From the NCBI RefSeq assembly GCF_900129295.1, contig NZ_FQUU01000022.1:1-64000 (forward strand): a stretch of 64,000 nucleotides of DNA, read 5' to 3'. The notes under the pieces are model-generated. The model did no database searches, was not told where the DNA came from, and worked only from the letters and a program-made list of their open reading frames with translations. The translations under genes and the position numbers were made by a program. Source of the stretch: Flavisolibacter ginsengisoli DSM 18119 (GTDB lineage Bacteria > Bacteroidota > Bacteroidia > Chitinophagales > Chitinophagaceae). This document shows, piece after piece, positions 35,568 to 41,451 of the stretch. How positions within the stretch are numbered: position 1 is the first letter of the stretch; each line of letters opens with the position of its first letter.

Positions 35568-36224
35568 ATGGCTTTAGATAAATATGGCATAGCACGTAGA
35601 ATTGCGCAGGAATTAAAGGATGGCATGTATGTAAATCTTGGTATTGGCATACCAACGTTGGTCTCTAATTATATTCCCGAAGGGATGTTTATCATGCTTC
35701 AAAGCGAGAATGGAATGTTGGGAATGGGACCTTATCCTTGTGAAAATGAAATAGATGCAGACCTGATCAATGCAGGTAAAGAAACAGTAACACTAATGCC
35801 TGGAGGCGCATTTTTCGATAGTGCAGAAAGCTTTGGGATGATAAGGGCCGGTAAAATTGATTTAACGGTCTTAGGCGCCATGGAAGTAAGCGAAAATGGG
35901 GATATAGCTAACTGGAAGATCCCTGGAAAAATGGTGAAAGGGATGGGAGGTGCCATGGACCTTGTAGCCAGTGCTCAGAACATCATAGTGGCTATGATGC
36001 ATACAAATCCTAAGGGTGACTCAAAATTGCTCTCTAAATGCAGCCTGCCATTGACGGGAGTCGGTTGTGTTAAGAAAATAGTGAGTGACCTGGCTGTGGT
36101 TGATGTTACTCCACAAGGATTTAAATTATTGGAAAGGGCTCCTGGTGTAAGTGTTGATGAAATTGTATCTAAAACCGCAGGGAAACTTATCGTGGAAGGA
36201 GAAATTCCTGAAATGCAATTATAA
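35568..36224 (+). CDS. scoB: 3-oxoacid CoA-transferase subunit B
   Basis: The 218-residue protein has the catalytic Glu47 in [12 protein letters not shown], the [10 protein letters not shown] motif, and GGAMDLV and [11 protein letters not shown] blocks of the beta subunit. Together with the preceding gene it makes the complete heteromeric CoA transferase used in ketone-body and short-chain acid metabolism. Confidence 0.95.
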
Positions 36225-36249
36225 GTTATAGCAGATGGGTAGCAAGGAC

Positions 36250-36900
36250 TTAATCAACAAGGTTATTCTTGACAGCAAAAAATACCAGGCCCGCAGTATT
36301 TTTACTTCCAAACCGCTCCATTAACCTGTCTTTGATTGCCTCAACTGTCCGTGGGCTAATCTCCATCTTTTGAGCTATTTCCTGTGCTGTAAATTCCATG
36401 CAGATAAACTTTAGCACATCTCTTTCCTTATCGCTTAATGTGATCTCATTTGTTAGCGATGGAACCACCTTTTGCTTGGAATGGGATTTCTTTAAAAGTA
36501 TGCGGTTAACAAAATTGTTCAGATAATATCCTTTTTCATGGACATCCATAATGGCACGCCTTATCTCCTGGGGTTCGGCATTTTTTAGCAGATACCCATT
36601 AGCGCCATTCTCCATCATATGAGAAACAAATCGCTCATCTTCGTACATGCTGAGCACAATAATATGTATTTGGGGATACTGCTTAGCTAACAGTTTAGTG
36701 GTTTCCATTCCATCTTTACCAGGCATCCTTAAGTCCATAAGGACCACGTCAGGTTCTGCCTCGGCAATTCCATTTAGTAATTCATCTCCATGCTCTGCTT
36801 CCAGTACAAACTTGATGTTTGTAAATGCACGCAAAGAAAGTATCACACCTTTCCTGAATATTTTATGATCGTCGGCAATAGCTACTTTGATAATTTCCAT
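36250..36900 (-). CDS. NarL/FixJ-type response regulator
   Basis: A receiver domain (about 1-120) with phospho-acceptor Asp56 in VVLMDLRMP, acidic Asp10-Asp11, and Lys105-type KNAE, joined to a LuxR-type HTH (about 148-216; LSDKERDVLKFICMEFTAQEIA, SPRTVEAIKDRL). It should act as a DNA-binding regulator phosphorylated by the histidine kinase encoded 23 bases upstream. Two related regulators lie at 39127 and 40786. It is the last gene of the minus-strand signalling unit. Confidence 0.94.
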   Translation of the reverse strand: MEIIKVAIADDHKIFRKGVILSLRAFTNIKFVLEAEHGDELLNGIAEAEPDVVLMDLRMPGKDGMETTKLLAKQYPQIHIIVLSMYEDERFVSHMMENGANGYLLKNAEPQEIRRAIMDVHEKGYYLNNFVNRILLKKSHSKQKVVPSLTNEITLSDKERDVLKFICMEFTAQEIAQKMEISPRTVEAIKDRLMERFGSKNTAGLVFFAVKNNLVD

Positions 36901-36923
36901 AGCACAGTTGGGATGCGATAAAA

Positions 36924-37766
36924 TTAGGAATTATGCGTTAATGATTCATTAACATCATCTTTTGGAATTTCCATGGTTACCTTATAATATGTCTGGGAAG
37001 GGTCTTTTTCGAAAAATATTTTACCCTGGGCTACCCTCAGGCGGCTGTTAATGTTCTTTAATCCCAGCCCTATATTACTTTTATTCAATTTTTCAAAGTC
37101 CGCCTGGACAATCCCTCTTCCATCATGATGAATACGCAATATAAACATACCATCATGCATATTCTGGGTTAGATGAATGAAGCTGGAATTACTATGTTTT
37201 AAAATATTATTGATCAGTTCCTGGATCACCCTGAAAACGATCAGTTCAATTTCTGGTTTCAATCGTTCCCTGTAATCATGAAAGCGGCTACTTGCATTTA
37301 TGGTACCTGAGCCACTTATCTTTTGGAAAAGATCATTAGTTGCAGACTCCAAACCAAAATTCTTCAGGGTAGGTGGCATCAGGCTATGACTGATGTTCCT
37401 GATCAGTTGTATAGTATCATCAAGAATCTGCCTGGCCTGGAAAATGGATTGTAATTGCGTGGCTTTATCCTGGTTTACCAGGTTTTCATTCAGGTAAAGT
37501 CGGGCAGTGGCCAGTAAGGGTCCGGCATCATCATGCAGGTCAGCAGCCAGCCTTTGTCTTTCTTCTTCCTGTAGTCGTATAGATGCATTAAGCAATATCT
37601 TTTGCTGTTCCTGCTCCATAGATTGAAGCCTCAGCTGGTAGCGAATTACCTTTCTTTGATGGAAAATGATAAAAAGTATAAGACCTATGGTCAAAGCAAG
37701 CATTCCTAGCGTTCCTAAGAACAAGACAAGGGAGATACCGGGTGGATTGGCTTGCAGAAAGTACAT
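36924..37766 (-). CDS. Sensor histidine kinase, HisKA_3 (NarX/LiaS-like)
   Basis: One membrane helix at the N-terminus (about residues 12-35), a coiled linker (RYQLRLQSMEQEQQKIL), and the HisKA_3 dimerisation domain with His78 in AADLHDDAGPLLA. The ATPase part has ELINNILKHS as N-box and DGRGI and GLGLKNINSRL as G-boxes. There is almost no extracytoplasmic domain, so it needs another protein for sensing; the 7-TM protein encoded 18 bases upstream is the obvious candidate. The regulator partner follows downstream. Confidence 0.93.
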   Translation of the reverse strand: MYFLQANPPGISLVLFLGTLGMLALTIGLILFIIFHQRKVIRYQLRLQSMEQEQQKILLNASIRLQEEERQRLAADLHDDAGPLLATARLYLNENLVNQDKATQLQSIFQARQILDDTIQLIRNISHSLMPPTLKNFGLESATNDLFQKISGSGTINASSRFHDYRERLKPEIELIVFRVIQELINNILKHSNSSFIHLTQNMHDGMFILRIHHDGRGIVQADFEKLNKSNIGLGLKNINSRLRVAQGKIFFEKDPSQTYYKVTMEIPKDDVNESLTHNS

Positions 37767-37784
37767 GGGTTGCGAATCTATGTT

Positions 37785-38489
37785 TTAATTAGATGGGTAG
37801 AAGTTATAATTTTTCGGGGGCTTTTTTATAGATTCATTGGCTTGAATATATATAGCTACAGTAAAAAATATATTTTTTACAATAGAAGAAATGTTTGTAA
37901 TGATCCAATACTTATTTAACTCCTGTATAGAAATTTGGTTTGCGAAAATATAAATGAAAAAAGAACCGGATAAGTAAATTAATATTCCTAATACTCCCCA
38001 AAAGGAAGCCTGGCTATAAATGAAAAAGTTTGAAGTATTATTTAATTGTTCATAGAAATATAGAAACGAGAATATAAAAATCAATATAGATTCAATCCCA
38101 ATGGGTATGGAATCAAGTACAGGTATATTCCTGATAACGAAGAATAAATAAAAATAATAGCCTATCAGGCAAATGGAAAATATCAATGTGATGAGTAGTA
38201 TTAATTTCCGTATGTAAGCTTTTGAAATTGTACAGTAAAAGAACCCGGCAAAAAATAAAGATTCGAATAAGGTAAATACAGGATATATATAGTTGTGATA
38301 ATTCGGGGGTATAAAGTAATAAAGGGAAAGATTTGTAATAAAATCAAATACAGTAAATGCTATCAGTACCCAAATGATTCTTTTGCTTTTTATTGATTTA
38401 AAAAAAATAGCAAAAAGTAAAATAGGTAAGATGTCAGAGAAGATGGCTAGTAATACAAAAAGGTTTTCTATAGTTTTGGTTTTTGCCAA
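37785..38489 (-). CDS. 7-TM membrane protein of a two-component gene cluster, function unknown
   Basis: Seven hydrophobic segments can be counted (about residues 9-30, 38-60, 68-87, 94-117, 127-146, 158-186 and 193-213), with only short loops and a Lys-rich tail. The base composition is more AT-rich than in its neighbours (many Ile, Phe, Asn, Lys, Tyr codons). I know no named family for it. There is no ATG anywhere in the frame: the best start is TTG 38489 (MAKTKTIENL), and the same frame upstream meets a stop at 38526. It lies 18 bases before the kinase gene and probably senses a signal for it. Confidence 0.75.
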   Translation of the reverse strand: MAKTKTIENLFVLLAIFSDILPILLFAIFFKSIKSKRIIWVLIAFTVFDFITNLSLYYFIPPNYHNYIYPVFTLFESLFFAGFFYCTISKAYIRKLILLITLIFSICLIGYYFYLFFVIRNIPVLDSIPIGIESILIFIFSFLYFYEQLNNTSNFFIYSQASFWGVLGILIYLSGSFFIYIFANQISIQELNKYWIITNISSIVKNIFFTVAIYIQANESIKKPPKNYNFYPSN

Positions 38490-38525
38490 ATATAGAAAAC
38501 CTTTTAAAGATTTAATAATTCTAAA

Positions 38526-38597
38526 TTAAAATTCCCACCAGCTTGGAGTAGTTGGCCATTCTATTGGGGGTACTGCTCTAAATACTTTTTTTGTCAT
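38526..38597 (-). CDS. Possible 23-residue peptide gene upstream of the 7-TM/kinase/regulator genes
   Basis: An ATG-started frame encodes MTKKVFRAVPPI followed by EWPTTPSWWEF and a TAA. The peptide has a basic start and a Pro/Trp-rich, aromatic end, unlike a random translation of such AT-rich DNA. It is the first frame of the minus-strand unit peptide - 7-TM - kinase - regulator and is 36 bases before the 7-TM start. It has no obvious leader cleavage site. It could be a secreted or surface signal sensed by the 7-TM protein, a leader peptide, or a chance frame. Its stop lies in the frame of the 7-TM gene. Confidence 0.4.
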   Translation of the reverse strand: MTKKVFRAVPPIEWPTTPSWWEF

Positions 38598-39126
38598 GAC
38601 AGTAAGTTTTTGTTATTAACGGATGTAAATATTGCCAGGACTACACCCGATTTCAATGGGTAACTAAACCCCTTAAATTCTAATTTTCACTAATAATGCA
38701 GAGATTACAACGCTTTCAGCCCAAAATCATAGTAAGCTTACTTGTCCAAATCGAGTAATCTCACGATATGAAAATAGTATTTTTACTAACATGAAAAAGA
38801 AATATTCCGATCAATTCTAAAGAGGGATAGTTTAATTGTTCAGTTAATAGGGCAGAATGGATCGTTGGAATGCACTTTAATTCTATCTATTCAAAACGAA
38901 AATTAGCCCCCTGTTTCTTTATAATCAATGTTATATAAAAAGAATTTTGAAGAAAGCTTTTATAATTGGTATGGAATCGTAAATTTACGAGATGTCAAAC
39001 GTGGTTCTACTAATTACTCGTTTCTGAAAGCGCTAAAATATCTTTTTATGATCATAGTATTTCAGAGTAAAAAACAATTAGTTTTGTAGACTACTGCTTA
39101 TAAGTCAATTACTTAAACCAATTTCC
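38598..39126. other. 529-base AT-rich intergenic region between divergent signalling genes
   Basis: The stretch should hold promoters for the minus-strand signalling unit and for the plus-strand regulator at 39127. A 53-codon frame at 38928-39089 was noted and not called. On the minus strand an aatattta block about 30 bases before the peptide ATG, with a TTG some 20 bases above it, is a weak promoter candidate. Confidence 0.5.
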
Positions 39127-39783
39127 ATGACTGCCCAGCAAATTAAAGTGGCCATTGCCGATGACCATAAGATCTTTCGGGATGGTATTAAAATGGCCTT
39201 GAGAGACCGCGATTATCTTAAAATTTTATGGGAAGCTGAGGATGGCAAAGACCTCATGCACAAATTGAAGCTTAAGGTGCCGGATGTGCTTCTGATGGAT
39301 ATCCGTATGCCCGAGATAGATGGCGTGAACGCAATTGGAATTTTACGCAAGGAATACGAGGAGATAAAGATCATTGTACTTACCATGTATGATGACCAGG
39401 AAATGATCACAAAAATGATGGAGATGGGAGCTAATGCCTATCTCACTAAAACCACTGATCCTGAAGAGATCTACCAGGCCATCCTGACCTGCATGAATGA
39501 TGACTTTTATTTCAATGACCTGGTAAACAAGGCGGTATTACTGAAACTGCAACACAAGAAAACTGTCCGCCAATTCTACCCCAACCCTATAAAGTTTTCA
39601 GAAAAGGAGATCAAAATACTAAAATGCATTGCTGAGGATAAAACCACTGAAGAGATATCTAAAGAGGTTTTCTTAAGCCCCCGGACAATTGAAACAATCC
39701 GACAGCAAATGAAGCAAAAAGTAGGTGCTAAAACTATTGCCGGGCTTGTAATGTATGCTATGCGTAACAAATTGCTGGAGTAA
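39127..39783 (+). CDS. NarL/FixJ-type response regulator, no adjacent kinase
   Basis: A receiver domain with Asp58 in VLLMDIRMPEIDG and a LuxR-type HTH (FSEKEIKILKCIAEDKTTEEIS, SPRTIETIRQQM). It resembles the products at 36250 and 40786. No kinase gene is next to it on the plus strand; the divergent kinase at 36924 is the nearest and may phosphorylate it. Its stop overlaps the start of a methyltransferase gene (taATG), so the two are co-translated. Confidence 0.93.
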   Translation: MTAQQIKVAIADDHKIFRDGIKMALRDRDYLKILWEAEDGKDLMHKLKLKVPDVLLMDIRMPEIDGVNAIGILRKEYEEIKIIVLTMYDDQEMITKMMEMGANAYLTKTTDPEEIYQAILTCMNDDFYFNDLVNKAVLLKLQHKKTVRQFYPNPIKFSEKEIKILKCIAEDKTTEEISKEVFLSPRTIETIRQQMKQKVGAKTIAGLVMYAMRNKLLE

Positions 39784-40785: not shown

Positions 40786-41451
40786 ATGAATAATCTCGAC
40801 TCTATTATCAAAGTTGCAATTGCAGATGACCATGCACTTTTCCGCACTGGTGTTAAAACCTCACTATCCAGCCGAAAGGATATACAGATGATTGCTGAAG
40901 CTGAGAACGGCATGCAACTTATGAACTTACTAAAGCATATTAAGCCCGATGTTATTCTTCTTGATATACATATGCCAATTATGGATGGGTATACAACATT
41001 ACCGGAAATAAAGAAGCTATACCCGGAAATGAAGGTTATAATGCTATCCATGAATAACGATCCTTCCATTATAACTAAAATGATGGAAATAGGTGCTAAT
41101 TCATACTTAACAAAGGAATCAGATTCAGAAACTATATACCAGGCAATAAAAACCTGCTATGAGCAGGAGTTCTTCTTTAATGACCTAACCAATAAGGCAC
41201 TATTGAATGGGTTACGAATGAAGAAACCACAGGAAAGCCCAATGCAGGAAGTGGTGCTTACAGATAAGGAGATCACCATACTAAAATTAATGTGCGAAGA
41301 AAAAAGCACTAAAGAGATAGCTGATATCGTTGATCTGAGCCCCCGCACAGTTGAAGCTATACGGGACAAACTAAAAACAAAGACCGGGGTTAAGTCAATG
41401 GCTGGCCTTGTAATGTACGCAGTAAAAGCAGGCATTGTAGAACAAGCCTGA
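40786..41451 (+). CDS. NarL/FixJ-type response regulator, no adjacent kinase
   Basis: A receiver domain with Asp60 in VILLDIHMPIMDG and a LuxR-type HTH (LTDKEITILKLMCEEKSTKEIA, SPRTVEAIRDKL). It is the third member of this family within 5.2 kb. It stands alone, with a palindrome before its start and a terminator after its stop, so it is a single-gene unit. The kinase is not identifiable from position. Confidence 0.93.
   Translation: MNNLDSIIKVAIADDHALFRTGVKTSLSSRKDIQMIAEAENGMQLMNLLKHIKPDVILLDIHMPIMDGYTTLPEIKKLYPEMKVIMLSMNNDPSIITKMMEIGANSYLTKESDSETIYQAIKTCYEQEFFFNDLTNKALLNGLRMKKPQESPMQEVVLTDKEITILKLMCEEKSTKEIADIVDLSPRTVEAIRDKLKTKTGVKSMAGLVMYAVKAGIVEQA

Follow-up and report, generated by a model that had tools for sequence, protein, structure and literature searches.

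The stretch of DNA analysed here, hereafter the window, covers 64,000 nucleotides of Flavisolibacter ginsengisoli DSM 18119 (contig NZ_FQUU01000022.1, positions 1 to 64,000). Its minus strand carries, between 36250 and 38597, four consecutive frames with successive gaps of 36, 18 and 23 bases: a 23-codon ATG frame, followed by genes for a seven-helix transmembrane (7TM) protein, a histidine kinase and a NarL-type response regulator. The locus raises the question of whether so short a frame is a gene and, if it is, whether its product is a ligand of the 7TM protein or a leader for the genes behind it. A sequence-only reading had described this order and these gaps, with which the coordinates agree, and had proposed a peptide-signal pathway. 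We find that the frame, judged by its conservation, is a real and selected gene, and that its product is most likely a dedicated ligand of the 7TM protein, the pair feeding the kinase.

The 23-codon frame and its divergence with the membrane protein

Frames of 23 codons are common in the window as such (many stand in its open-reading-frame list), which is the point in favour of a chance frame in a non-coding leader region. Position-specific conservation and codon usage speak against it. A close 7TM relative is present in 16 of the 18 genus genomes (17 loci); the other two, G001 without a 7TM relative and G008 with a distant one only, are 78% and 84% complete, respectively. At 16 of the 17 close loci an ATG frame of 21-29 codons stands in the same place and follows the loose pattern M..K..R..P(P)...WW[ED], with WW present in 15 of the 16; the acidic residue or the second Pro is missing from a few rows. 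At the remaining locus (G004) a long form, cut by the contig end, takes the place of the short peptide. Among 14 aligned peptides of this WWE type, single-base codon differences were synonymous in 274 cases (121.3 expected) and non-synonymous in 229, a ratio to be taken as a guide and not as a formal test since codon pairs are non-independent; pairs differing at more than one base were the majority (1062, 50 of them synonymous). The second short type, which ends in W-E-E or similar, gave 96 synonymous differences against 44.1 expected and 138 non-synonymous ones (10 peptides, two of them alike). In the WWE type the conserved Arg is coded by AGA, CGC or CGT and one conserved Pro uses all four CCN codons; amino-acid constraint is seen at both ends of the peptide. 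Because frames of this loose pattern recur at a fixed position in 16 of 17 loci and synonymous changes are in excess, we take the frame to be more than chance and rejected the chance-frame explanation, which is hardly credible. Conservation of the frame and a synonymous bias in relatives were what the sequence-only reading had staked its peptide on, and both were found; the WW-E ending that it had pointed to upstream of 7TM, HisKA_3 and NarL genes recurs in other named genera.

The genes of the module diverge at very different rates. Median pairwise identities at 12 WWE loci are 41.7% (peptide) and 38.1% (7TM protein), compared with 75.5% (kinase) and 82.7% (regulator); precursor and 7TM protein diverge fast, kinase and regulator do not. 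We compared precursor with 7TM distances in partial Mantel tests, with the kinase and regulator distances removed. The sets drew on 12 of the 13 WWE rows (window included), seven of the 12 WEE-type loci and 21 of the 29 long-form loci described below, near-copies and loci with cut or split genes being left out; L038, whose kinase is cut off at a contig end, was excluded here and from the identity medians. The precursor-7TM correlation was r 0.50 across the 19 short-form loci and r 0.55 across the 21 long-form loci, with 0 of 2000 permutations as high in either case, and in these two larger sets the precursor-regulator values were smaller. For the long forms the whole precursor (0.55), its domain (0.49) and its tail (0.52) give similar values, so that no special role of the tail emerges from the test; in the same set, significant correlations also linked the tail with the kinase (r 0.30, p 0.002) and the domain with the regulator (r 0.27, 0 of 2000). 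This covariation supports a ligand/receptor pairing, short of proof because rapidly evolving genes may record more history than slowly evolving ones.

The precursor slot in relatives and the origin of the short form

Named loci were collected by scanning a collection of one genome per species once, for a single pattern conserved in the 7TM alignment. Of the 62 loci obtained, those with a family or genus in their title belong mostly to Chitinophagaceae. Kinase and regulator genes follow the 7TM gene in 59 of them, and in L038, L063 and L067 the record ends first. A recognisable precursor was tallied by reading upstream of the 7TM gene in 59 of the 62, none being found in L081, L084 and L085. 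These 59 comprise 12 WWE-type, 12 WEE-type and two other short Trp peptides, 29 long forms and four Cys-tail forms, one of which (L089) was read by eye. The long form has about 120 amino acids, with a conserved domain (G14, I17, G43, Q53 and C56 are invariant among 29 aligned) and a variable tail that contains Trp in 28 of the 29, L064 being the exception; L034 and L090 are cut by a contig end. Its AlphaFold model has a predicted local distance difference test score (pLDDT) of 79 with a low-confidence tail. Foldseek with this model against solved structures returned nothing useful, a sequence search of solved structures gave two matches, both non-significant, and no significant family was found in Pfam or NCBIfam.

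The slot extends well beyond these loci. 7TM relatives occur in at least 260 of the 394 genomes sampled from the window's family, Chitinophagaceae to judge from the named loci, and at least 99 of the 395 sampled from its class, on the same grounds Bacteroidia, with seven or more copies in some genomes; as at most seven candidates were scored per genome, copy numbers and tallies are lower bounds. Class precursor slots were read at 27 loci and then at 60 further loci, and the slot in relatives holds proteins of about 100 to more than 300 amino acids, some of them lipoprotein-like. At 41 of the 60 further loci an upstream frame carries CPx(1-3)C within its last 45 residues (strict motif, all frames of at least 40 amino acids ending near the 7TM gene). 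The same motif was found in 0 of 108 window frames and in 8 of 797 frames of the named loci, some of which are perhaps precursors themselves. Nine of the 41 Cys-tail precursors are lipoprotein-like, so that their tail should lie outside the inner membrane, and four have a hydrophobic N-terminus. Ten class-level precursors matched nothing in Pfam and gave one weak, below-cut-off match in NCBIfam, to a lipoprotein-family N-terminus (L230).

A second module stands in the window genome itself (contig C6:18100-18741; G000, L134), where an 88-residue protein ending GCPYPPPCL is joined by a 7TM, a kinase and a regulator gene; genus cousins of this precursor have GCPxPPC-like tails. Genus paralogues L137, L139 (as L205) and L141 have proteins close by that end in NPSPPATRS, NPSPPRATN or an ADPSPPATA-like tail and may represent one more tail class. 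The upstream gene of L131 is lipoprotein-like and includes a stretch that by eye resembles the long-form domain. Tandem 7TM-type frames lie side by side at L160, L169 and L179 and in G625, G125, G705 and G739.

A tree of 87 7TM proteins unites all 23 rows that have a short peptide, of WWE or WEE type, in one clade with a Shimodaira-Hasegawa-like approximate likelihood-ratio (SH-aLRT) support of 97. Its sister, also at SH-aLRT 97, is L034, whose long form ends in GIVADRGIRTGITTEDENWWDI (NWWDI). The tree is a quick one (no bootstrap, many long branches, unrooted for want of an outgroup), so we infer the direction of change; it omits L068, L072, L075, L081, L085 and 10 of the 27 class loci. Five tail classes, labelled by eye, require 10 changes on it compared with a shuffled mean of 48.7, and 0 of 200 shuffles was as low. 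A leader stretch close to AAAACTTACT stands, again by eye, ahead of the short forms and many long forms. Adjacency on the tree, the same slot, a similar 5' leader and a shared tail are all consistent with descent of the short slot from a long form; the simplest reading would be a single domain loss with the Trp-Trp-acidic tail retained. The 23-residue peptide accordingly looks like a reduced relic. The pathway proposed at the outset is partly supported, and its scope is wider than claimed: its peptide appears to be a derived mini-form of a class-wide slot. The long-form relatives, and the hairpin over the 7TM gene start treated below, had been missed.

The seven-helix protein, the kinase and the junction hairpin

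AlphaFold2, given 58 aligned relatives, predicts seven long helices (mean pLDDT 93.1, predicted TM-score 0.89), in agreement with the seven-helix protein first read from the letters. Across the 58 sequences the loops between helices TM1-2 and TM3-4 and the C-terminus are positively charged, and the TM2-3, TM4-5 and TM6-7 loops are neutral or negative; this fits an N-out/C-in topology, without being clear-cut as TM5-6 is neutral. The window protein has no significant Pfam or NCBIfam family, none of the 58 relatives has a significant Pfam match (best E 0.003), and a sequence search of solved structures with the 7TM profile found none. G-protein-coupled receptors (GPCRs) and microbial rhodopsins top the Foldseek list, with a best E of 0.076 and none at E 0.001 or better; the better matches have TM-scores by query of about 0.45-0.54 and root-mean-square deviations of about 6-8 Å, and we regard the resemblance of the model to either group as weak. 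Microbial rhodopsins carry an invariant retinal-binding Lys in TM7. The mid-TM7 Lys of the window protein, K204, is at least 90% conserved in a 30-row alignment, is absent from the 90% list of the 58-row alignment and is Arg in genus member L007; a rhodopsin reading was rejected on this last ground. Bac_rhodopsin matched weakly in two of the 58 relatives (best E 0.024). An enzyme reading was also rejected. Hydrolases of the CREST/PAQR 7TM type have conserved metal-site His residues, and the 7TM alignment has no His in an invariant or nearly invariant column and no significant Pfam family.

The kinase (HisKA_3 and HATPase_c) and the regulator (Response_reg and GerE) exceed the Pfam gathering scores in all four domains, and the kinase has just one hydrophobic stretch, within residues 7-41, leaving almost no extracytoplasmic part. 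A kinase with almost no extracellular domain and a NarL-type regulator, both named in the sequence-only reading, are thereby borne out, and phosphotransfer between them is predicted from the domains of a HisKA_3/NarL two-component system. Table 1 lists the features of the locus.

Table 1. Features of the four-gene locus (window positions)
Feature	Positions	Strand	Basis
23-residue peptide gene MTKKVFRAVPPIEWPTTPSWWEF, short precursor form	38526..38597	-	ATG start; kept in genus loci, synonymous excess
Seven-helix membrane protein, putative receptor, 234 residues	37785..38489	-	TTG start; AlphaFold2 model, loop charges
HisKA_3 histidine kinase, 280 residues, one membrane helix, no sensor domain	36924..37766	-	Pfam
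NarL-type response regulator, 216 residues	36250..36900	-	Pfam Response_reg, GerE
Hairpin over 7TM gene start, between peptide and putative receptor genes, about 20 pairs, then T-run	38458..38505	-	Folding
TATATTTG, match to Bacteroidota -7 box TAnnTTTG, within hairpin and overlapping the TTG start	38487..38494	-	Motif count
Promoter-like TTG (38654-38656) and TATTTACA (38624-38631) upstream of peptide	38624..38656	-	Inferred, by-eye alignment
AAAACTTACTG directly ahead of peptide ATG	38600..38610	-	Similar stretches ahead of many long-form precursors, by eye

The RNA between the peptide and the 7TM start folds better than expected (z -3.1), and the stem of about 20 pairs that it forms is followed by a T run. 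Of the 54 loci in which a TAnnTTTG box lies close to the frame opening, 31 have a strong stem (score of at least 11) around it. They include 21 of the 25 loci that make up the short-peptide clade plus L034, and 10 of the 29 others, whose arms are different. As controls, 218 further TAnnTTTG sites of these loci gave 7 strong stems and 1077 random positions gave 5; within the 64-kb window the count is 2 of 45 TAnnTTTG sites, one per strand of the junction hairpin itself, and 6 of 600 random positions. By our count the junction has a fold z of -2 or lower in 32 of 61 loci, with fold windows placed by match start so that several late-match loci read off the junction. In 25 aligned hairpins 91.8% of the cells pair, compared with 89.2% when shuffled and 67.6% at best when slid. 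Their covariation score is above all 500 shuffles, and two of the five measures were attained by shuffles too, both-side changes in 39 of the 500 and additional pair types in 85; the 18 one-sided changes lead to G-U pairs and 41 cells are unpaired. TAnnTTTG, the -7 box consensus of Bacteroidota according to PMC7366714, is present at 52 of 61 junctions and in 19 of 406 background windows, which are mostly coding and unmatched in composition; of the 62 loci L068 was skipped, and L039, with its box just outside the interval scored, counts as a miss.

The plain reading of the junction hairpin is a putative terminator after the ligand gene. An internal promoter inside it is possible as an idea, and it clashes with the TTG start because the box overlaps this TTG, which a transcript starting after the box would lack. 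The inverted repeat may also be a DNA operator. Scans for sigma-70-type promoters and short-loop terminators gave no more matches than shuffles, the junction hairpin not being among them, and an Rfam search of 36000-39200 returned no match. When the N-terminal stretch of the 7TM frame was searched for start codons at 39 loci, an in-frame ATG was found in 11, only GTG or TTG in 16 and none in 12; in L044, L045 and L048 the in-frame ATG is already inside the first helix. The 7TM reading frame relative to the TATATTTG box varies between loci, and L072 has an in-frame stop in the 7TM frame within the hairpin region, ahead of the first helix.

Ligand, subunit or leader

The account we somewhat favour is a four-gene module with a dedicated ligand, in this locus a peptide of 23 residues whose working part would be the Trp-rich acidic C-terminus. 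The ligand would engage the 7TM protein, which would form a receptor together with the sensor-less HisKA_3 kinase, and the kinase would phosphorylate the NarL-type regulator. The peptide would descend from a precursor of about 120 residues that lost its domain and kept its tail, and the terminator-like hairpin after the ligand gene would let ligand and receptor be expressed at different levels. The peptide-7TM contact and its side of the membrane, the driving of the kinase by the 7TM protein, a cell-to-cell signal, termination at the hairpin and the regulated targets are all predicted steps. The proposal of the 7TM protein as receptor is compatible with its loop charges, its rapid divergence and its covariation with the precursor, seen in two of the three sets; the receptor role itself is a prediction from these. 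As for the original choice between ligand and leader, we prefer a partner protein over a pure leader because long-form and lipoprotein-like relatives exist; the pure leader keeps some weight.

A ligand of this kind could act in two ways. As an excreted quorum signal it would be exported by an unlinked transporter and sensed by the 7TM protein from outside, for which the N-out/C-in loop charges, the faster divergence of ligand and receptor than of kinase and regulator and the precursor-7TM covariation of two of the three sets are what one can cite; the missing signal sequence of the peptide, and an exporter or protease that by eye is not seen at the locus, make this form rather unlikely. Small proteins are known to regulate kinases, and the precursor may instead be a subunit, intracellular or associated with the membrane, that tunes the complex of 7TM protein and kinase in its own cell. 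The same lack of a signal sequence and of a nearby exporter then counts in its favour, as do the listed W-tail long forms, in which no signal is evident by eye, and the Cys-tail forms in which a crude rule finds none; a tail rich in Trp might rest on the membrane surface. Such a subunit is hard to square with relatives that are lipoprotein-like or hydrophobic at the N-terminus, which put the tail outside the inner membrane, and rapid turnover of ligand and 7TM protein would be more usual for exchanged signals. Taken by itself the subunit is also unlikely, if a little less so, and for signal-less forms we lean slightly towards action within the producing cell rather than between cells.

The main rival to both forms is a pure leader gene: translation or ribosome pausing on the short frame would set transcription past the hairpin or reinitiation at the 7TM gene, and the peptide itself would be inert. 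It predicts that translation matters and the sequence does not. A leader would be expected to show this arrangement, a short frame and then a terminator-like hairpin that covers the next gene's start, and the 28 of 39 7TM loci without an in-frame ATG in the searched stretch also agree with it; leader-type genes that raise downstream translation are described (PMC4833913). An attenuator likewise consists of a leader frame and a terminator-like hairpin before the next gene, an arrangement found here with a putative terminator; for an antiterminator, minimum-energy and centroid folds alone were computed. An inert peptide is at odds with the constraint at both of its ends and with proteins of about 100 to more than 300 residues, some lipoprotein-like, in the same slot of relatives. 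The distance from peptide stop to hairpin differs among loci, and the downstream genes do not belong to a Trp or Pro pathway. We consider the leader improbable.

Several results weigh against the ligand account. G003 (L004) keeps an intact 7TM gene, yet its peptide ends in LFGQD and has lost WW. When the 12 WWE loci are taken by themselves, the partial correlation of precursor with 7TM protein is non-significant (r 0.19, p 0.10), and the precursor-regulator value is nominally higher (r 0.26, p 0.037); the latter correlation is nominally significant in the other two sets too (r 0.21, p 0.04; r 0.22, p 0.0065). The short peptide has neither a signal sequence nor a hydrophobic stretch. No exporter or peptidase was noticed among the recurring neighbours, which were judged by eye on their first residues with no family search run, and the crude rule, which narrowly missed the lipobox-like L218 and L237, detects no N-terminal signal in 28 of the 41 Cys-tail precursors.

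The module shares parts with several known systems. Two-component peptide signalling is known mainly from Firmicutes, and the Agr system of that phylum also encodes a short precursor, a membrane protein, a histidine kinase and a regulator in one operon, with fast ligand and receptor divergence. It differs in its polytopic receptor kinase, where the present kinase is of HisKA_3 type with one helix; the regulator is NarL-type and the phylum is another. The one Pfam match of the window 7TM protein is non-significant and not to AgrB, and the 25 weak families listed, out of 30, for the 58 relatives do not include AgrB. ComRS/Rgg peptides are likewise short, lack a signal sequence and carry Trp-Trp in their C-terminal part, but they act on a cytosolic RRNPP regulator, whereas the neighbours here are a 7TM protein, a kinase and a NarL regulator; no cytosolic peptide-binding regulator of the Rgg/ComR kind is encoded among the three genes after the peptide. 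Like 7TMR-DISM proteins (PF07695), the system pairs a seven-helix membrane sensor with intracellular signalling parts, here with the 7TM protein as a separate gene that has its own partner gene upstream. PF07695 is absent from the window protein and weak in two of the 58 relatives (best E 0.004). With microbial rhodopsins and GPCRs the likeness lies in a seven-helix bundle and a predicted N-out/C-in topology. We found no description of such a system in searches of an open-access library, outside which lie most subscription papers and all bioRxiv preprints.

A broader and more tentative proposal is that Bacteroidota at large carry modules in which a fast-evolving ligand, marked by a short and conserved C-terminal tag (PCPxxC, GCPxPPC or Trp-rich), is recognised by a stand-alone GPCR-like receptor with seven helices that in turn drives a sensor-less HisKA_3 kinase, and that the Flavisolibacter clade has reduced the ligand to a peptide hormone 15-29 residues long. 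Should the ligand reading be true, many Bacteroidota would possess several private ligand-receptor channels, with a separate seven-helix protein of GPCR-like topology as the receptor, and the partner used by sensor-less HisKA_3 kinases would be revealed. The precursors would then form a natural series from lipoprotein-like proteins of nearly 300 residues down to a peptide of 15, from which the active tag could be read.

Around the operon some further features recur. The promoter-like TTG and TATTTACA are mostly kept, by eye, across the 16-locus genus alignment. As a genome-wide signature, AAAACTTACTG-N2-ATG was rejected as unspecific, since at two or fewer mismatches the reversed control gave 92 matches where the motif gave 103; the motif's only other exact match lies ahead of a frame of 6 codons. 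Two more NarL-type regulators (39127-39783 and 40786-41451), with no kinase between them, are divergent from the operon, and regulators related to this pair recur near the operon in relatives. In Flaviaesturariibacter-type loci (L012, L014 and L016, which are L035, L038 and L043, and L042) a multi-helix membrane protein gene of another kind precedes the peptide gene, about 0.3-1.1 kb upstream.

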